Origin: Elusimicrobiota bacterium
Lineage (GTDB): Bacteria; Elusimicrobiota; Elusimicrobia; FEN-1173
Assembly: GCA_016788905.1 (NCBI GenBank)
Contig: JAEURZ010000005.1
Coordinates: 1 to 64,000 of the forward strand
Length of the DNA stretch: 64,000 nucleotides
Reading direction: 5' to 3'
Position 1 is the first letter of the stretch. Each line of letters begins with the position of its first letter. Position numbers and translations under genes: made by a program. This document shows, piece by piece, positions 1 through 8,266 of this stretch. The notes under the pieces were generated by a model that saw nothing but the letters and a program-made list of their open reading frames with translations, was not told where the DNA came from and ran no database searches.

Positions 1-159
1 CAGAAGGTGAAAATGATTTGGCATCAAGACCCAGGCGAGACATCGGCATTTCGACTTTTCCAAACCAATTCGCAGACTGAGAGACGTCTCTTTGTTTTCC
101 CCGGTTATGCGCCATTAGAGAATCCCCAGCAAAACGTCGTAATCCCTTCCCCAGCCTAA
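1..159 (+). CDS. C-terminal end of an unrecognised gene cut by the window edge
   Basis: Frame 1 is open from the first base to a TAA at 157-159 (52 codons). It starts inside a gene, so no start codon is visible. The tail reads as a plausible soluble protein end (KMIWHQDPGE, then PLENPQQNVV) but I do not recognise the family. It lies upstream of the IS21-linked ORF in the same orientation. A chance open frame of this length is possible, so this is a weak call. The 75 bases between its stop and the next gene show only a Shine-Dalgarno-like GAGGGGG. Confidence 0.3.
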   Translation, partial: QKVKMIWHQDPGETSAFRLFQTNSQTERRLFVFPGYAPLENPQQNVVIPSPA

Positions 160-234
160 CCTGGCTGTAAAGAAACAAATCTCGACTAAATAGTGATGTG
201 GTGGCACCCTTGACTTAATGAGGGGGTGACGGCC

Positions 235-699
235 ATGAAGAGACGACGTTGCATGATTTGTGGGGAAGGGTATGTTCCGGACGCCCGTACCCGCAGGATT
301 CAAAAGGCGTGTGGAAAGCTCTCCTGCCGGCGCGCCCGAAAAAAGCTGGCCGATCAGGGGTGGCGGGCCAAAAACCCCGGTTATTGTTCAGGGCGAGTAG
401 GTAAAATGCGGACGTGGGCGCTGGAATACCCCACGTATTGGAAAGACTACCGCGCCAGCCACCCGGACTACACCCAAAGAAACCGCAATCAAACGCGCGA
501 GAGAATGCGGGTATCGCGATGTGTGTTTGCAAAGCAAGACGCGATGCGACGGGATCCCGTCGGATACTTGGCGATGTTGAGACCCCCGGCCTTGTTTGCA
601 AAACAAGACGCGATGGCGGGGTCTGTCGACGGAATTGTCTCTTTTCTGGTGGATCGGGAGGTGTTTGCAAAACCAAACGATATGGTTTCCATGGGGTAA
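235..699 (+). CDS. Small zinc-binding-like protein associated with the IS21 element
   Basis: A basic protein of about 154 residues with four cysteines near the N-terminus, CMIC then C-x4-C (CGKLSC), consistent with a small zinc ribbon. Basic and aromatic residues follow (YWKDYRASHPDY). ATG 235 is chosen because GAGGGGG lies just upstream; a GTG at 226 is also in frame. The last third is unusual. It contains three related octapeptides (VFAKQDAM, LFAKQDAM, VFAKPNDM) spaced 23 residues apart, which are the IS21 terminal repeats read in frame. The ORF therefore overlaps the left end of the element and stops 18 bases before istA. A homologous, shorter ORF lies beyond istB in inverted orientation. 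I recall similar ORFs beside IS21 elements in other bacteria, with no function known to me. DNA binding is only an inference. Confidence 0.6.
   Translation: MKRRRCMICGEGYVPDARTRRIQKACGKLSCRRARKKLADQGWRAKNPGYCSGRVGKMRTWALEYPTYWKDYRASHPDYTQRNRNQTRERMRVSRCVFAKQDAMRRDPVGYLAMLRPPALFAKQDAMAGSVDGIVSFLVDREVFAKPNDMVSMG
524..684 (+). repeat. Three 23-bp direct repeats with a 69-bp period (IS21 left end)
   Basis: Copies start at 524, 593 and 662, each beginning TGTTTGCAAA. Copies 1 and 2 differ at one position (AAGC versus AAAC) and share the tail AAGACGCGATG. Copy 3 is more diverged after the first 13 bases. The period is exactly 69 bp both times. The array sits immediately upstream of istA, where IS21-type elements carry multiple transposase binding sites. 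It is also in frame with the preceding small ORF. Confidence 0.8.
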
Positions 700-717
700 C
701 TGTGGCATCATAAACCC

Positions 718-2205
718 ATGAACGCAGAACTCTGGGCAGAAATCCGACGGCTACACAGGACCGAAAAAGTCCCCATTGCTCATATCGCCAGGCGCCTGAA
801 TCTCGACAGGAAAACCGTTCGGCGAGCGCTTCGCTCGGAGCGGGTGCCGGTGGTGACCCGCGCCTGTGGACCATCGCGGGTGGCCCCCTTCGCGTCGTAT
901 CTTGTTGAACGCCTTGTGGACTACCCCAAACTGCCGGCCCCTGTCCTTTTGCGGGAGCTTCACAATCAGGGATTCCGCGGGAGCCTTCGCATCCTCCAAC
1001 GACACCTGCGTGACCTGCGGGTGAAAGTCAAACCGGTCTTCCTCCGCATCGAAACACCCCCCGGCCAACAAGCCCAGTGCGATTGGGCGCATTGTGGCTC
1101 CGTTTTGGTTGGCAAGACCCGGCGAAACTTATCCGCGTTCGTTATGGTCCTCAGCTATTCACGATTGATGTATGTGGAATTCACTCTGTCCCAGTGCCTG
1201 GAAGATTTTGTTCAGTGCCACATCAATGCCTTCCGCGCCTTTGGCGGGATTCCCACTAAAATTCTTTATGACAATCTTCGCCAGGTTGTTCTCTCCCGCT
1301 TTGGCGCCGATATTCGGTTCAACCCGTCGTTCATGGAATTCGCAGGGGTCTTTGGATTCCAGCCTGTCCCCTGCAACATTGCCCGGGGCAATGAGAAAGG
1401 GAAAGTCGAAAATGGCATTTATTTTCTACGGGCAAACTTTCTGGCAGGTCGCATGCCAGCGTGGCCGGAGATTAATAAAGACGTTCAGAGATGGCTCGAT
1501 GACAGCGCCAATGTTCGAATCCACAGAACCACCCGTGAACGCCCTATCGATCGTCTGACCCACGAAAAGCCATTCCTTTTGCTTCTTCCCACACGGCCCT
1601 ATGATTCTCGTGTCACCCGCGCCGTCCGCTCCAGCCATCAGGCCCTCGTCCGATTTGACGCCAACTTCTATTCCGTTCCCCACAAAGACGCTTATAAAAC
1701 GTTGGTTCTTAAGGCGACCCCCACCGACGTCCACCTTTTTTTGGATTCCCAAGAGATCGCTTCACACAAACGCTCCTACGATCGCGGGCAGGTGATCGAC
1801 AATCCTAAACACTTTGAAGGCATTCTCGCCACAAAAAGAAAATATTTTCACACCATTCTCCACAAACGGTTTGCGGAATTGGGTCCCATCGCCAAAACCT
1901 TTCTCGATGGCTTGGTGGCCGCCCAGCTCCCCCCGATCCGACACCTTCGGCACATCCTGACCCTTGTCACCACCTATGGCAAAAATGAAGTCGGTTCCGC
2001 CATGGAACACGCCATCACCTGCAATGCTTTTGGTTCCTCCTACGTAGAGAACATTCTCTTGCAACGCCGCGCCGCCAACGGACTACCGGAACTTCCTACG
2101 CTAGAGATTCCGCAACAGCCAGAATGGAATGAGATCGAAACCCCGGACCCTGATTTGAACATCTATGACTTGGATTCCGATCCCACAGGAGGTCCCTCCG
2201 CGTGA
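718..2205 (+). CDS. istA: IS21 family transposase IstA
   Basis: The 495-residue DDE transposase cuts and joins element ends together with IstB. An N-terminal helix-turn-helix (about residues 18-38, AHIARRLNLDRKTVRRAL) precedes an rve integrase core. The likely catalytic triad is Asp122 in QCDWAHCG, Asp185 in LYDNLRQ and Glu231 in GKVEN. The Asp-Glu spacing and the GKVEN context are typical of IS21. A C-terminal beta-barrel-like domain and an acidic tail follow. The length is normal for the family and there is no internal stop. The start at ATG 718 lies 34 bases after the last terminal repeat. The stop TGA overlaps the istB GTG (GTGA), suggesting translational coupling. Confidence 0.95.
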   Translation: MNAELWAEIRRLHRTEKVPIAHIARRLNLDRKTVRRALRSERVPVVTRACGPSRVAPFASYLVERLVDYPKLPAPVLLRELHNQGFRGSLRILQRHLRDLRVKVKPVFLRIETPPGQQAQCDWAHCGSVLVGKTRRNLSAFVMVLSYSRLMYVEFTLSQCLEDFVQCHINAFRAFGGIPTKILYDNLRQVVLSRFGADIRFNPSFMEFAGVFGFQPVPCNIARGNEKGKVENGIYFLRANFLAGRMPAWPEINKDVQRWLDDSANVRIHRTTRERPIDRLTHEKPFLLLLPTRPYDSRVTRAVRSSHQALVRFDANFYSVPHKDAYKTLVLKATPTDVHLFLDSQEIASHKRSYDRGQVIDNPKHFEGILATKRKYFHTILHKRFAELGPIAKTFLDGLVAAQLPPIRHLRHILTLVTTYGKNEVGSAMEHAITCNAFGSSYVENILLQRRAANGLPELPTLEIPQQPEWNEIETPDPDLNIYDLDSDPTGGPSA

Positions 2206-2990
2206 GGCAGCGTTCACCGCCCATCGTTCTTAAATCCGCCCCGGATACCATCCCCACTATGCTCGACTACCTCAACCTCCCCATCAGCGCGGAATCCTAC
2301 GCCGATCTTCTGGCGAAGGCAGGGAAAGACAATTTGTCCCACGAAACTTTCTTGAAACGTTTGTTGTCCAACGAGGTGAGCGCCAAATTTGAGCGCCAGG
2401 TTCAATCCCGCCTACGCCAGGCACGGTTTCCCTCCATCAAAACCCTCGACGCCTTTGACTGGGCCCATCCCACGGCCATCCCGCGGGCCAAAATCATCGA
2501 GGCCTTTGAGCTCCGATTTGTTGAGAAATGCGAAGGGCTGGTGTTTATTGCCGGCAACGGCTTGGGCAAAACCCATCTGGCAACAGCGCTGGGTCACAGA
2601 GCCGCCCTCGCCGGGGTGAGGACCCTCTTCACCAAGGCCGTCGATATGGTCAACCATCTTCAGGCCTCCCAGGCCGACCATAGCCTCCACAAAACCATGA
2701 AGCTCTACACCCATCCCCCCTTGCTGATCATTGATGAACTGGGGAGGCTGTCCTTAGACCAAAAACAAGGCGAGTTCCTCTTCAATGTCGTCGACGCCCG
2801 CTATGAAAGAGCCTCCACGGTCATTACGACCAACCGAGCCTTCAAAGACTGGGGAAAAATATTCCACGACATGGTCTGCGCCAAAGGCATCATCGACCGC
2901 CTCGTCCACCATTCCGACGTGATCCGTATCGAAGGAACCTCCTATCGCCTCAAAAACCGTAAAACCCAGTCTCTAGCCGAATCGGAATAA
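2202..2990 (+). CDS. istB: IS21 helper ATPase IstB
   Basis: A DnaC/DnaA-like AAA+ ATPase that assists IstA in target selection and strand transfer. Walker A is GNGLGKTH (residues 118-125 from the GTG start) and Walker B is LLIIDELG (about 174-181). A sensor I-type stretch (VITTNRAFKDW) and the C-terminal region HSDVIRIEGTSYRLK match the family. The GTG at 2202 overlaps the istA stop by 4 nt. The alternative ATG at 2259 would remove 19 residues and give an N-terminus (MLDYLNLP) closer to typical IstB, so the start is not certain. The second glycine of the usual GxxGxGKT motif is replaced by Asn-Gly-Leu, which is unusual but keeps GKT. Confidence 0.93.
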   Translation: MRQRSPPIVLKSAPDTIPTMLDYLNLPISAESYADLLAKAGKDNLSHETFLKRLLSNEVSAKFERQVQSRLRQARFPSIKTLDAFDWAHPTAIPRAKIIEAFELRFVEKCEGLVFIAGNGLGKTHLATALGHRAALAGVRTLFTKAVDMVNHLQASQADHSLHKTMKLYTHPPLLIIDELGRLSLDQKQGEFLFNVVDARYERASTVITTNRAFKDWGKIFHDMVCAKGIIDRLVHHSDVIRIEGTSYRLKNRKTQSLAESE

Positions 2991-3121
2991 TTCATCCAGT
3001 GAGGTCATTCAATGGAATCCAGGTTTGTTTTTTTAAGCCTATGGAAGGATGCTCTACGCCCATCCTCGGGGGGATGGGGAACTTTCAACGACGCAAAATG
3101 AGGATTTTTGCGCGACGCCGC
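2991..3121. other. Intergenic DNA after istB with a hairpin; probable right end of the IS
   Basis: Contains a hairpin at 3059-3078 (arms CCCATCC / GGATGGG, 6-nt loop) without a T-tract. An AT-rich interrupted palindrome at about 3098-3116 (CGCAAAA ... TTTTGCG) follows. Either could belong to the right end of the IS21 element. No copy of the left 23-bp repeat is recognisable here. Confidence 0.45.
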
Positions 3122-3367
3122 TCAGTAATCTGGATGTTTTGAGCGACAGGTAGCCCAATAGTGCTTTTCCTTGGCCCAGCTTCCGTGTTTAGAGGCTCGG
3201 GCCACATCCGTTTCCCGGCCGTTTTTGCTCCACCAACGGCGGTGCGATGCCAACCGACTTTCACGGCGGTATTGCGCATGGGAACAATATTTTTGGGAAG
3301 CGGCAAAGCGGGGATCCGACTGAAACCAACGGTGACAATGATGACAACGCCTCTTCGGGATTTTCAT
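3122..3367 (-). pseudogene. Inverted, truncated homologue of the small zinc-binding ORF
   Basis: The 81-residue frame aligns along its length with the ORF at 235-699. Shared features are an RRC-x2-C start, F/Y-x2-D-x-R, a QK-x-C segment, W-x-K-N, and the terminal YW-x2-(Y/C)R-x2-HPDY. It stops at TGA right after HPDY, so it lacks the AKQDAM tail of the left copy. The fourth zinc-ligand cysteine is tyrosine here (TGC to TAC, one base). ATG 3367 is preceded by GGAGAG at good spacing, so it could still be expressed. The missing cysteine and the short tail suggest a decaying copy. It lies in inverted orientation on the far side of istAB. Confidence 0.5.
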
Positions 3368-3873
3368 GGCAGGGCTCTCCTGCCACAAGTATGTCCCCAG
3401 AACCGGCAGAGGGGGTCATGGAAGAAATTGTTGGCTTACAAATCCAGGGCAAACAACCAAAAGAGGCCTAAGAAAATAAAGTTGAAGAAATCGCCCCTAT
3501 TGCAATGGGGAAATGTCCCGGGGGAGAAACCGCCCCCGGGGTCGCGAGTTCTGCGACCGCCCGCCCCCGCACGCGGTTAAAAAATAAATCACAACCCCAG
3601 CCCTTTTTTGCCCCCTCCAAAATTCACCCCCCATTTTTTACCGTTTTGGTGAAAGGGCGTCCATCAGTCAAAGGGCCTTATCGGTTTATCTGGGGAACAG
3701 CGAGAAATGATTTTAAGGGGTAGGATCGTTGCTCCCGTTTAAGTCGACGAGAGATCGAATATGGGGGAATTAATCAGGACCTCTTTGATCCTGCTATTCC
3801 GTTAGACTCCATCAGTTCACGGCTCTTGACAGCTTTCAAAAGAATCGGCCAGGATAGGATTTAGCCTACGTCA
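3368..3873. other. 506-bp stretch without a convincing gene
   Basis: No frame here has both a plausible start and protein-like composition; the longest (3505-3723, plus) is rich in Pro/Arg from GC-rich hairpin DNA. The stretch holds three consecutive hairpins (3494-3558), a run of T-rich tracts (about 3603-3645), and a further weak hairpin (CAGGA ... TCCTG) near 3775-3795. It separates IS21-associated DNA from the 3' end of the Gld-like operon and may be remnant mobile DNA. Confidence 0.5.
3494..3558. repeat. Cluster of three consecutive inverted repeats
   Basis: Three hairpins lie almost back to back: 3494-3510 (CCCC-T-ATTGCAAT-GGGG), 3517-3540 (CCCGGGGG / CCCCCGGG, 8-nt loop), and 3540-3558 (GGTCGC / GCGACC, 7-nt loop). 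The middle stem is 8 bp of pure G/C. A T-rich region begins about 40 bases further on. The function is unknown. Confidence 0.6.
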
Positions 3874-4434
3874 TCACGGGTTGCTGGTTGTGCCTACCGC
3901 TGGAACAGAAGACGTGTTGACTTCCCAATCCGTGGGATTGGTGGATAATTCATGGGCAGAAAACTCTTCCAGAACAATCTTCTTTGAATCGGCCGGGCGC
4001 AGATGGGCTTTTCGGAATTCGGGGGAGGAACCCACGTAAACGGTTTCTTTCTCTTTTTCTTTTCTAAAAAAAACCACTTTCTTTTCAAACTCCGTCTCGG
4101 AAACCTTGAGCCGTTTTTGAGCGGAGGTTGTGTCCGCCACGGGCCAGGACTTTTTTAATCCCACAAGCTTCTCGATGGTTTGAGCCATTTTTTCGGGAGA
4201 CACAACAATACCGGCCCGTTCAGGGATCACCCATTTTCCATCGGTGTAAGTGAGCGTCAGCGGAGGTTTTAGGGGTTCGGTAATGGTGACTTTATCGTAG
4301 TCTCCCTTTTCGATACCCAACAGAGATTCGCTGGATTCGAAAGCCCCACTCCCGCGTCGATTCAAAAAGAAGACACCCGCCAGGAAAATTTGCCCAACCA
4401 GGAGACCCAACAACAGTTTCGATTTGATGTTCAT
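3874..4434 (-). CDS. DUF4340-like membrane-anchored protein, short form
   Basis: A 186-residue protein with one N-terminal transmembrane segment (about 7-24) and a periplasmic domain. The domain shows the DUF4340 pattern: a beta-rich stretch with DGKWVI, then VVADTTSAQKRLKVSE-like and VYVGSS segments. DUF4340 proteins commonly sit beside GldF/GldG-type ABC permeases. Here the start overlaps the stop of the fused permease by 4 nt (ATGA), so the two are translationally coupled. Family members are usually 300 residues or more, so this one ends early, after about one repeat unit. It ends at a normal TGA with no visible downstream continuation. It is the last gene of the operon. Confidence 0.75.
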   Translation of the reverse strand: MNIKSKLLLGLLVGQIFLAGVFFLNRRGSGAFESSESLLGIEKGDYDKVTITEPLKPPLTLTYTDGKWVIPERAGIVVSPEKMAQTIEKLVGLKKSWPVADTTSAQKRLKVSETEFEKKVVFFRKEKEKETVYVGSSPEFRKAHLRPADSKKIVLEEFSAHELSTNPTDWEVNTSSVPAVGTTSNP

Positions 4435-7313
4435 GAGGACGCCCTCCGCTCCGCAAGGATCATGGGGATTTTAGCCAAATGACGGCGACGCCGGCCACGG
4501 GTGACACCCCACAGTCCGGTTAAACCGGCCAAGGCCAGCCCGTAGTTCAGGTATTCCCAGAAAATTCGTTTGGATCGGGTCATGGGGTTTAAGACCCGGG
4601 CGAATTGGCCCCGTCCCCGAATGGTCAAAAGTCCCCGATCTTCCAGAGACCAATCCACCACATTTTCCGCAAATTGAAGAGAATTCAGATAGGGCGTTCG
4701 ACCGACCGAACTCGTAAACCGCAAGATTTCGTCGGTCATGAAATCGTTCGACCCAACGATGATCAAGCGAGCGGATTCGGCCGATTTTTCAATGACAGAA
4801 CTAAACACCACCTCTTCCGGGGGTTTGGCTTTAGGATCTTTTTTCCCTTCCGGCAGAAGCGGTGACTTTTTCCCCTTAAAGAAAGATTCGAAGGTCCCTT
4901 CCACCGTGACCCCGATGGGTTGAGCGCCACGGGGCCCGCTCGGGGTAAACCCAAAGGACTTGTTGGGTTGGGACGTGGGGAGCACACTGGTGGACGCCGA
5001 CGTCCAAGCTTCCGGTGAACTCTTCAACAGGTCCGTCACCTGTCGACCGATATTCTTTTCCTTGTCCACCAGAACAGGGGCCGCCCAGTGAACCGTCATT
5101 TGGGGAAGGCCATCGGTTACCACATTCCCGGCCAATCCCGGCCCCCGAACATCCACAAAGTAGGGATAGTTGATCAGTTGCATATCCTGGAACACAAAGG
5201 GCCCCACACGCCGTTCCACAGGAAGAGGGAAGGGTGTGTTTTGCGGGTCCAAAACCATTTGCTGATCTTGCGAGATCCCCTGGTGACCCAACCATTCCTC
5301 CAACCCACTCTTTTGAAAAGTCACCGCTAAGGGACTCGTTTTGACGTTGAACGGGGAAGTGAACAGGACCACCGTCCCCCCTTTCATGAGGAACTGATCC
5401 ACAGCAAACACTTGCTTTTCGTCCATGTCTTTGGGCGCAACCACGAACAGAAGATCCGTTTCACCCGGAACACGACCGTCTTTTAAATCCACCGGAACCA
5501 CCGAATGGTTTTGGGTTAACTTGTTTTTGAGCTGTTCAAACGTCTTTTCCGGTTTCATGGCGAACCCGTCGGCCGGGGTGTAGTGGGGTTCCGGAGGTGC
5601 CGTGACGAGGGCTACGGTTTTCAAAAAGCCCGTGGAGTAGCGTTTCAGCCCAGATTCAATGCTTTGGCGAAACCCCGCCGCGGTCAAATCTTTGGGAAGA
5701 GGAATCATCACGGCCTTTTTCCCATCGTTTAAGAGAAGTGAGAAATAAAACGTTTGGGTGTCGAAAAGCGACGCGCGTAGGGGTTGAATCCCGAACTTTT
5801 TCGCCAGGTCTTGGGCGAGAGCCCCATCCCCTTCGCGGGGATCTTTGAACAGGGGAGTAAACTTTTCTCCCGCGTCTTTCTTCATTTCTTCCAAAATCCC
5901 CACGATTTGACCACGAAATTCCCGAAAGGATTCCGGCAATTCTTTGTCGGGAGAAATGTAACAGGTCAACGTCACCGGTTGGTGAAGTGTGGCGAACAGA
6001 TCGGATTCGCTCTGGTATCCTTGAAGAACTTTTTTAATCGCCCGTGTCACATCGTATTCAGGGTTTCGCAGTTCCACATTAATTTTCGTCTCGGTCTCTT
6101 GTTTCACGTCGATCAAACTGTCAAAACCGAGCACTTCATGCCGGTCTCCATACCGAACGAGGATATTAAAATAGGAGTTCACCAATCCGGATTGGTATTT
6201 GTCGGCCACTTGGAACGGAACAGGTTTAATCCCATATTTCTCCGCCGCTTCTTTTTCCAGAGCCGGTTGTTCCATGGGGTCGATAAATTCCGAGCGCACA
6301 CGCCCGCCAGATACCGTTTGGTATTCCAAGATCAGATCCCGTATCCGCGGAACCAGGGGGGCCAAGAGAGGATGTGTTTTGGCGCTAAAATAGCCCCGAA
6401 TCAACAAGGGTTCGCGCAATTGGGAGAGAACACCTTTCGTGGCGGGTGAAATGGAATAGACCTTTCCCTTCGTCATGTCTGTGCGCAAAAAAGCGACGGG
6501 TTTCAGCCACAGGTTCGCCGCCAAAAAGTTGGCGCAAAGAAGCCCCGTGGTCAAAAGAGCCGTTTTGTGGTTCGGGCGCGCCTGTTCCCGCGACCAGCGA
6601 AGGGTTTCAAGAGCATAGGTGTTTAACGCCAAGAAAACCGCCGAAAGGCTCACGTAGTAATAGATGTCACGGATATCCAAAACCCCACGGGTGATGGACT
6701 CGAAGCGGGACCCGGTGCCCAAAAGTTTAAGGGTTTCGGACCCCTGGTTTCCCACAAACGCCGTGAGCAGGTCGGACCCCACCACATAAAACGCCGCCCC
6801 CGCTAAAACGGAGAGAATTAAACTGACGATTTGACTATCGGTTTTGCTCGAGATATAGAGTCCCACCGCCGCGTAGGCCGCCGCTAAAAAACAGGCCGCC
6901 AGATACCCACCGAGGACAGGGCCCCAATCCAACGGCCCCATAAAAGAGACGGTGATCGGAAGCGGCAAGGTGAGCGCGAGGGCGGTCACAGCCAAAAGCC
7001 AACAAGCTAAAAACTTACCCAAAACCAAATCCGTTGTTTTGACCGGCAATGTCATAAGAAATTCAAGGGTCCCCATACGCCGCTCTTCGCTCCACATCCG
7101 CATGGTGACAGCGCTCATAAGGAAAATAAGCAAAACCGGCATCCATTCAAAAAGAGGCCGAACGTCCGCCAGGTTCCGAGCGAAAAAAGTGTCCACCCAG
7201 AAAAAGGCAAAAAGAGTCACAGCCAAAAAAGCCCCTAAAAAAATGTAAGCGGTCGGCGACCCGAAAAGACTGGCCCATTCTTTCCGAGCGACGCGCACGA
7301 TATTGTTTTTCAT
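4431..7313 (-). CDS. Fused GldF-GldG type ABC transporter permease / auxiliary protein
   Basis: A 960-residue fusion. Residues 1 to about 250 form an ABC-2 permease with six membrane segments (ARKEWASLFGSPTAYIF at the start, EERRMGTLEFLMTLPV cytoplasmic motif). A seventh segment near 255-272 leads into a large extracytoplasmic GldG-like domain (ABC_transp_aux). A last membrane helix lies near 925-945 with a basic cytoplasmic tail. In Bacteroidota GldF and GldG are separate genes supporting gliding; outside that group such transporters occur without gliding and their substrate is unknown. The gene overlaps the ATPase gene upstream and the DUF4340 gene downstream by 4 nt each, so all three form one exporter operon. 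Confidence 0.88.
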   Translation of the reverse strand: MKNNIVRVARKEWASLFGSPTAYIFLGAFLAVTLFAFFWVDTFFARNLADVRPLFEWMPVLLIFLMSAVTMRMWSEERRMGTLEFLMTLPVKTTDLVLGKFLACWLLAVTALALTLPLPITVSFMGPLDWGPVLGGYLAACFLAAAYAAVGLYISSKTDSQIVSLILSVLAGAAFYVVGSDLLTAFVGNQGSETLKLLGTGSRFESITRGVLDIRDIYYYVSLSAVFLALNTYALETLRWSREQARPNHKTALLTTGLLCANFLAANLWLKPVAFLRTDMTKGKVYSISPATKGVLSQLREPLLIRGYFSAKTHPLLAPLVPRIRDLILEYQTVSGGRVRSEFIDPMEQPALEKEAAEKYGIKPVPFQVADKYQSGLVNSYFNILVRYGDRHEVLGFDSLIDVKQETETKINVELRNPEYDVTRAIKKVLQGYQSESDLFATLHQPVTLTCYISPDKELPESFREFRGQIVGILEEMKKDAGEKFTPLFKDPREGDGALAQDLAKKFGIQPLRASLFDTQTFYFSLLLNDGKKAVMIPLPKDLTAAGFRQSIESGLKRYSTGFLKTVALVTAPPEPHYTPADGFAMKPEKTFEQLKNKLTQNHSVVPVDLKDGRVPGETDLLFVVAPKDMDEKQVFAVDQFLMKGGTVVLFTSPFNVKTSPLAVTFQKSGLEEWLGHQGISQDQQMVLDPQNTPFPLPVERRVGPFVFQDMQLINYPYFVDVRGPGLAGNVVTDGLPQMTVHWAAPVLVDKEKNIGRQVTDLLKSSPEAWTSASTSVLPTSQPNKSFGFTPSGPRGAQPIGVTVEGTFESFFKGKKSPLLPEGKKDPKAKPPEEVVFSSVIEKSAESARLIIVGSNDFMTDEILRFTSSVGRTPYLNSLQFAENVVDWSLEDRGLLTIRGRGQFARVLNPMTRSKRIFWEYLNYGLALAGLTGLWGVTRGRRRRHLAKIPMILAERRASS

Positions 7314-8266
7314 CGGCGTCCTCCTTCCTCTGCGGATTCGTGTTGTGTGTTCACTTCCCGGAAAACTGTTTCAAGATCGCGTCGTTCGGGCGCAAGCGAA
7401 TACACCGCAAACCCTTTTTGGACGAGACCCCGGGCGACCGTTGGAGCCGCCTCCCTCACGGGGCGACCTTCCCGGAGCGAAAGGGCGTAGCGGTGTTCCC
7501 CCTCCTGCCCCCCCAAATGGTCAACGCCCTCGACCCCGTCCAACTCCCGTAAGGCGGGTTCGGCTTCCCGAGGCGATCGGTCCACGGTCACCAACAGGCG
7601 TTCGCTGGCTTTCAGTTCCGATAGTTTTTTGTCCATGACCAGACGGCCATTGAGCACGATGAGCACCCGGTCGCACACGGCTTCCACTTCTTGCAGAATG
7701 TGCGTGGAGAGGACCACAATGGACCCTCGCCCCAAATCCCGGATGAGAGACCGCATTTGAAGAACTTGGGAAGGATCCAACCCGTTGGTGGGTTCGTCCA
7801 AAATCAAAATCGGGGGTTTGTGGATCAGAGCTTGGGCCACGCCCACACGCTGGCGGTAGCCCCGCGAAAGGGTTTGAATACTTTGGGCGCCTTTCGCCAA
7901 AAGGTCCGTTTTCTGAAGGGCATCCCGAACGGCTTGATCGCGCCTCTCCATGGGAATTCCGCGCAGGTCGGCGGTAAAGGAAAGAAAATCCAAAACGGTC
8001 ATGTCGGGATAAAGGGGGCCGTTTTCAGGGAGGTATCCGATTTTAGATTGGGACGGTCGTCGATGGTCATCCATATCTTTTCCATCCACCAAAACTCGAC
8101 CTTCCGTGGGTTCCAGGTAACCGGTCATCATTTTCATGATGGTGGTTTTCCCCGCTCCGTTGTGGCCTAAGAGGCCCACAATCTCCCCTTGATTAATTTC
8201 AAAGGACACCCGGTCCACCGCGGTCAGGGTTCCGTATTTGCGCGTCAGTCGTTCACAAGCGATCAC
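7310..8266 (-). CDS. ABC transporter ATPase, GldA-like
   Basis: A 318-residue ABC ATPase that energises the fused permease downstream. Walker A is GHNGAGKTT (34-42), the signature is LSRGYRQRVG (133-142), and Walker B is ILILDEPTNGLD (153-164). A roughly 100-residue C-terminal regulatory domain follows, as in ABC-2 type exporters. The GTG start at 8266 is chosen because GGGAGGT lies about 7 nt upstream. Its stop overlaps the ATG of the permease gene. It is the first gene of the operon. About 90 bp separate it from the next gene upstream, including an AT-rich stretch likely to hold the promoter. Confidence 0.93.
   Translation of the reverse strand: MIACERLTRKYGTLTAVDRVSFEINQGEIVGLLGHNGAGKTTIMKMMTGYLEPTEGRVLVDGKDMDDHRRPSQSKIGYLPENGPLYPDMTVLDFLSFTADLRGIPMERRDQAVRDALQKTDLLAKGAQSIQTLSRGYRQRVGVAQALIHKPPILILDEPTNGLDPSQVLQMRSLIRDLGRGSIVVLSTHILQEVEAVCDRVLIVLNGRLVMDKKLSELKASERLLVTVDRSPREAEPALRELDGVEGVDHLGGQEGEHRYALSLREGRPVREAAPTVARGLVQKGFAVYSLAPERRDLETVFREVNTQHESAEEGGRR

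Follow-up and report, generated by a model that had tools for sequence, protein, structure and literature searches.

The window, by which we mean the whole 64,000-nucleotide stretch of DNA analysed here, opens contig C5 of a 2.5 Mb genome and carries a transposable element, the features of which are collected in Table 1. The element is filed under the IS21 family on its predicted IstA and IstB proteins, with istB (start at 2202) directly after istA (end at 2205), and from its sequence it appears to span about 78 to 3124. Ahead of istA there is a small zinc-finger (zf) open reading frame (ORF), listed mechanically as 226-699; translation more likely begins at the ATG at 235.

Table 1. Features of the element and of the repeat array within it (window positions).
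Feature	Position	Strand	Remarks
IS21-type element, ~3.05 kb	78..3124	+	ends predicted
Putative left terminal inverted repeat (TGAGAGACGTC...)	78..116	+	weaker than the left repeats of relatives
Small zinc-finger ORF, 154 aa	235..699	+	C-x2-C...C-x4-C, Arg-rich helices
Repeat R1	524-546	+	inside zf ORF
Repeat R2	593-615	+	inside zf ORF
Repeat R3	662-684	+	abuts putative -35 of istA promoter
Putative -35 hexamer TGGTTT	683..688	+	weak, 2/6
Putative -10 hexamer CATCAT	706..711	+	39 bp after R3 core start, 6 bp before istA start
istA, IS21 transposase, 495 aa	718..2205	+	NF033546, E=1.9e-82, 277 bits (cut-off 160)
istB, IS21 helper ATPase, 262 aa	2202..2990	+	NF038214, E=8e-73, 245 bits (cut-off 200)
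Putative right terminal inverted repeat (TGAGCGGCGTCGCGC..., minus-strand reading)	3080..3124	-	

The C-x2-C and C-x4-C pairs are invariant throughout the zf family, which also shares Arg-rich stretches. The protein is predicted to be mostly helical by AlphaFold2 (4 sequences; mean pLDDT 73, with residues 119-154 below 50); the loci L082-L084, which duplicate the records L034, L045 and L055 and are counted once, were used only for this structure model. No family scored above its cut-off when the zf proteins were tested against Pfam, NCBIfam and PHROGs, a Foldseek search of the model against the PDB returned nothing at E<=0.001, and the hits of a PDB sequence search were confined to short stretches of zinc finger (best E 0.0027). 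The protein falls in no recognised DNA-binding family. According to PMC3281130, extra ORFs in such elements, for which IS21 and IS66 are typical, have a mostly unknown and probably regulatory role.

Within this ORF the original prediction had described three 23-bp repeats with a 69-bp period, in frame with the coding sequence, and this description is confirmed. R1, R2 and R3 are 23 nt each, spaced 69 and 69 bp apart, and are read in the zf frame as VFAKQDAM, LFAKQDAM and VFAKPNDM; identity to copy 1 is 96% for copy 2 and 78% for copy 3. The pattern TGTTTGCAAARCAAGACGCGATG, allowing up to three mismatches, matches nothing but copies 1 and 2 in the whole window and nothing at all in 100 dinucleotide shuffles of it, and the region scores 20.5 for repeats, more than any of 100 codon shuffles (maximum 11.0). 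No copy of the array motif was found elsewhere in the window, the right end of the element included. The array lies about 450 bp inside the element, and its copies are direct, not inverted; it is thus internal, not terminal.

The ends of the element were located separately. The right end, 3124, is where the window ceases to match a relic on contig C24, just past ...CGCCGCTCA; the relic (L002, ~1500-1540) is itself the right end of a related element, and it matches the window as far as the terminal CA. The left end, 78, gives the best match to the right end among the TG positions in 1-220 (18/38, the next being 13/38), and matches the left ends of relatives at 22/38 (L041) and 21/38 (L065) positions. 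No target-site duplication is seen at 78/3124 in the window, where the ends are predicted and the copy may be rearranged. Among the relatives, whose ends were placed with the help of identical Caballeronia copies and by inverted-repeat comparison among loci, TG...CA terminal repeats with several units are clear in L038, L040, L043, L048, L049 and L058, among others, whereas the match of 18/38 gives them moderate support in the window. In relatives the terminal inverted repeats are found ~125-190 bp ahead of the zf start on one side and ~150 bp behind istB on the other. The Caballeronia element of L077 (~4756-8179), with its left end 233 bp before the zf start, has CCACC on both sides, and the L049 element (2246-5269) has AAAGG on both flanks; the ends of L038, L040, L043, L048, L058 and others were placed similarly, with no clear duplication. 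The terminal units (e.g. GTGTACAGTTTTCGCCG, ~20-24 bp apart) are unlike the internal arrays.

Two further observations concern the flanks. On the minus strand at 3104-3388 a second zf ORF survives as a remnant (33% identity, one TGA inside the match) that touches the right end of the element, is convergent to istAB and is perhaps the stump of another such element. On the other side, a minus-strand frame in positions 1-77, hence within 77 bp of the contig edge, contains MPNHFHL, which we take for a motif known from REP-associated tyrosine transposases.

The small ORF has relatives in 28 of 340 genomes of the phylum at E<=0.001, and in 31 of 340 by a profile search at 1e-5, the window's genome being included both times. 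A few plasmids carry relatives as well, and plasmid searches added few more; a search of viral contigs and phages for zf relatives gave none. For comparison 45 loci were oriented: besides the window, 39 came from the phylum and five (L074-L078) from plasmids, so that 40 of the 45 represent one phylum; L070, in which the zf domain was not matched, was left out. An open zf ORF with two to three copies of the repeat is present at 38 of the 45 (window counted; the second copy of L054 was added by eye). At L051 and L060 the copies are present and the zf ORF is broken, and no clear array was found at L057, L063, L069, L072 and L073. When 27 of the arrays were classed by the genes that come next, 13 stand before IstAB, seven before a ParB/KorB-like gene followed by IstAB, one (L034) before a ParB/KorB-like gene only, two before a tyrosine recombinase, one before an rve-type DDE recombinase and three before a serine recombinase with ParB/RepB, the ParB/KorB label being based on the annotation of L078, weak Pfam scores and sequence resemblance. 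The other 11 of the 38 arrays, at contig ends or next to other genes, fall outside this classing. At six IstA loci that have no zf ORF (L095-L099 and L101, with L099 covering 130 bp upstream only and the istA of L101 partly matched) there is no array at the corresponding position.

Some of these cassettes deserve a separate mention. The Caballeronia locus L077 (4600-8300) holds an IS21-type element with a zf ORF and an in-frame 69/69 array, and near-identical copies of the element occur on several replicons of SBC1 and SBC2; it is a possible live test system. In genomes G007 and G008 (L042, L044 and L059, oriented ~2400-8000), open zf cassettes precede very large Fn3/Kelch proteins that look secreted. 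At L059 the spacing from the start codon to the -10 box is the same as elsewhere, and the start of the protein is somewhat like that of IstA (MYSEAW). A literature search, which extended to titles and the starts of abstracts, with most subscription papers and ISfinder beyond reach, brought up no paper that we recognised as describing such a cassette.

The original prediction had called the repeats IS21 terminal repeats and a transposase-binding array, and the reading behind these names, that IstA assembles the transpososome on them as terminal or subterminal repeats, now seems to us highly improbable. It is true that the ends of IS21 elements carry repeated IstA sites, as PMC10122671 describes; in IS5376 these are L1/L2 and R1/R2, 23 bp apart. 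There is also L095, an IS21 element with no zf ORF, which has upstream units (~165-255 bp before istA) with the core TTGCAAAG, like the internal array motif; it shares with L098 strong upstream repeats in 24-bp steps, at another distance from istA than the arrays, and has an additional 64-bp step of its own. However, the relatives possess separate terminal repeats of unrelated sequence, right ends yielded no copy, and the spacing in the arrays is 54-82 bp against ~23 bp. A scan of 42 loci found no second array at the right end, and weak single matches to the motif outside the arrays at 8 of them (forward in L034, L042, L044, L067, L075 and L076, reverse in L051, L071 and L078, those of L078 and others being far from the array). 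Moreover, the same kind of repeats precedes tyrosine, serine and other DDE recombinases. As terminal repeats, the segment 524-684 was rejected on the grounds that it is not at both ends, is not inverted and differs from the true termini. The suggestion of a protein array on one face of the DNA fared no better: spacings of 54-82 bp show no helical phasing.

How the repeats evolve as part of a gene was followed in seven groups of related elements, the pairs within which are non-independent. Fourfold-degenerate sites differ at 293 of 494 positions in the zf part, at 67 of 170 in the spacers and at 8 of 88 in the repeats (R1 4/36, R2 3/38, R3 1/14), and the share of differences that fall on third codon positions is 0.48, 0.43 (0.41 and 0.45 in the two spacers) and 0.32, respectively. 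The repeats are thus near-frozen at synonymous sites, and the spacers evolve like coding DNA; the excess of third-position variation that the original prediction proposed to look for is found in the spacers and not in the repeats, where synonymous change is almost nil. The spacing tells a similar story. The distance between the first two copies is a multiple of three in 26 of 26 arrays, representing 18 zf clusters and six lengths (60, 63, 69, 75, 78 and 81 bp), which looks like genuine selection on the reading frame. The expectation that all spacings would be multiples of three holds for this first one but not for the last, which takes values such as 67, 68, 70, 71 and 82 bp and is a multiple of three in 15 of 22 arrays with both copies inside the ORF and in 7 of 16 with the second copy past the stop codon. 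Similarly, a frame through the repeats is not universal, since some copies lie beyond the stop codon and the array DNA of L055 is read as VCKTR rather than FAK.

These non-multiple spacings, the copies past the stop codon and the frame of L055 indicate that it is the DNA sequence, not the peptide, that is kept in the repeats. Taken with the first spacings and with the fourfold and third-position data, they lead us to regard the ORF as truly coding through R2 and the repeats as DNA sites. The opposite view, that a peptide (A-K/N-Q-D...) is selected and the similarity of the DNA is a by-product, can point to the in-frame repeats of the window and to the usual reading AK or AN, but it is already contradicted by third positions that are not free. 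The fourfold sites are frozen (8/88), codon-position bias is absent, L055 and L064 use another frame, and copies continue past the stop codon; we give this view almost no credence. Protein repeats as such were rejected on the frozen synonymous sites and on last spacings that are often not multiples of three. Of the proposal that the same DNA both codes and binds, the dual part stands, as there is coding plus non-coding sequence constraint, and the transposase as the binding partner finds no support.

The position of the last copy relative to the gene behind it provides a further clue. In 28 of 35 loci the best -10-like hexamer lies 39 or 40 bp from the core of the last copy, with the anchors of eight GATATACAA/TTACAA-type loci set partly by eye and L037, L053 and L066, which have too little downstream sequence, outside the 35; shuffled regions reach this distance in 9.2 loci on average and 16 at most (2000 trials). 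With one locus per 55%-identity cluster the count is 20 of 22, against a maximum of 11 in 5000 shuffles. A -10-like box at the same place is found after R1 in 0 of 26 arrays, after R2 in 1 of 26 and after R3 in 22 of 25, and -35-like hexamers directly behind the last copy have a mean match of 3.4/6, the shuffled means being 2.69 or lower. The window's own -10 (CATCAT) and -35 (TGGTTT) are poor. Among the 35 loci examined, 30 have a start codon within 40 bp of the -10 box, and in 22 of these it comes 6-7 bp past the box, an arrangement that would make their mRNAs leaderless; the serine-recombinase loci have no ATG right after the -10, and one of the three has an ATG within 40 bp, at 38 bp. At 10 of the 35 loci (L035, L036, L040, L041, L043, L046, L047, L054, L055 and L056) the zf stop codon falls inside the -10 hexamer. 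The sites are therefore at a fixed place before the predicted promoter of the transposase gene.

This geometry bears on two other explanations. Small basic zinc-finger proteins can bind RNA, and control at the RNA level, with the zf protein acting on the repeats of its own mRNA, would be expected to produce the same synonymous freezing. However, the recombinase transcript is predicted to start only after the last copy, and the distance from this copy to the -10 box is constant even where the start codon is farther away (L061, L074, L077 and L078), which makes such control rather unlikely. In phage Mu, the operator doubles as an enhancer. By analogy, a recombinase or a regulator might engage the array during transposition, besides or instead of any promoter role, and three internal sites ~450 bp from the left end, together with the comparison of IstA with MuA in PMC10122671, would fit this. 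But the array is common to elements with tyrosine and serine recombinases, and the fixed promoter distance already accounts for its position; we regard a Mu-like enhancer, too, as unlikely.

If the recombinase does not dictate the repeats, the neighbouring zf protein may. Over 248 pairs of loci with different recombinase classes, motif similarity rises with zf identity (rho 0.43, equalled in 0 of 1000 permutations). The same 21-nt motif is found, letter for letter, at L046 (IstAB) and L056 (tyrosine recombinase), and L036 and L041, whose recombinase modules are different, have zf domains 60% identical and motifs 81% identical. Since motif similarity tracks zf identity across recombinase classes, the repeats travel with the zf gene, their sequence going with the zf protein rather than with the recombinase. 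Shared descent could be partly behind this co-variation.

The reading we favour, with a probability of roughly two in three, is that the array consists of regulatory DNA sites for the promoter that drives the transposase genes, placed inside the zf gene's own coding sequence. It draws on features computed directly, namely position, frame, dual constraint, distance to the -10 box, co-variation with the zf protein and internal location. The three repeats, within the 3' third of the zf gene preceding istA, would act on the istA promoter, with R3 abutting its -35 region and R2 and R1 as auxiliary sites farther upstream. The -10-like box would then be the promoter in use, and the istA mRNA would start at or beside its own start codon and so probably be leaderless, with leaderless translation presumably to follow. 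Judging from the sequences, the likeliest ligand would be the zf protein itself, in which case the gene carries its own operators and the element its own transposition control; the array is most likely the operator set of the recombinase promoter, putatively bound by the zf protein. Protein-level selection on the C-terminal tail of the zf protein, between R1 and R2 and after them, would account for a frame that stays open through both copies and for spacings that are multiples of three. As to the sign of regulation, known element-borne transposase regulators mostly repress, and for this reason our guess is that repression is likelier than activation; an activator could equally well use the place of the last copy, about -57 to -37 relative to the predicted start.

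A broader proposal, on which we are evenly divided, is that the small zinc-finger proteins are regulators of an undescribed family and come as a portable cassette, made up of the gene, its self-embedded operators and a leaderless promoter at the last operator. This cassette would have been recombined ahead of no fewer than four recombinase types unrelated to one another, and in one genus would now precede large Kelch/Fn3 proteins that look secreted. The array shows how one DNA stretch can hold two codes in separate slots, the repeats for (putative) DNA binding and the spacers for protein. It also points to a common regulator of mobile elements with unrelated recombinases, and the same regulator before different recombinases would offer a natural test of modular transposition control.

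Three known systems may be compared. Phage Mu, with its operator and internal activation sequence, resembles the present element in having three internal sites near the left end, an IstA-related transposase and sites tied to transposase expression. To our knowledge, however, the Mu sites are not in the coding tail of a regulator and there is no zf repressor, and the cassette described here also serves non-DDE recombinases. The IS21 family (IS21, IS5376) is matched by the istA-istB pair, which scores above the curated cut-offs, and by the TG...CA ends, several terminal repeat units and 5-bp duplication of the relatives; the difference is the zf gene ahead of istA, with its internal array. CvkR, which represses type V-K CAST transposons, is a MerR-type protein whose inverted-repeat site lies in promoter regions (PMC9938897). 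It is likewise borne by the element, with sites at the promoters of transposition genes and leaderless mRNAs (in our case predicted). It differs from the system here, which would use a zf protein and direct repeats with the sites in the regulator's own coding sequence; functionally CvkR is the closest analogue known.
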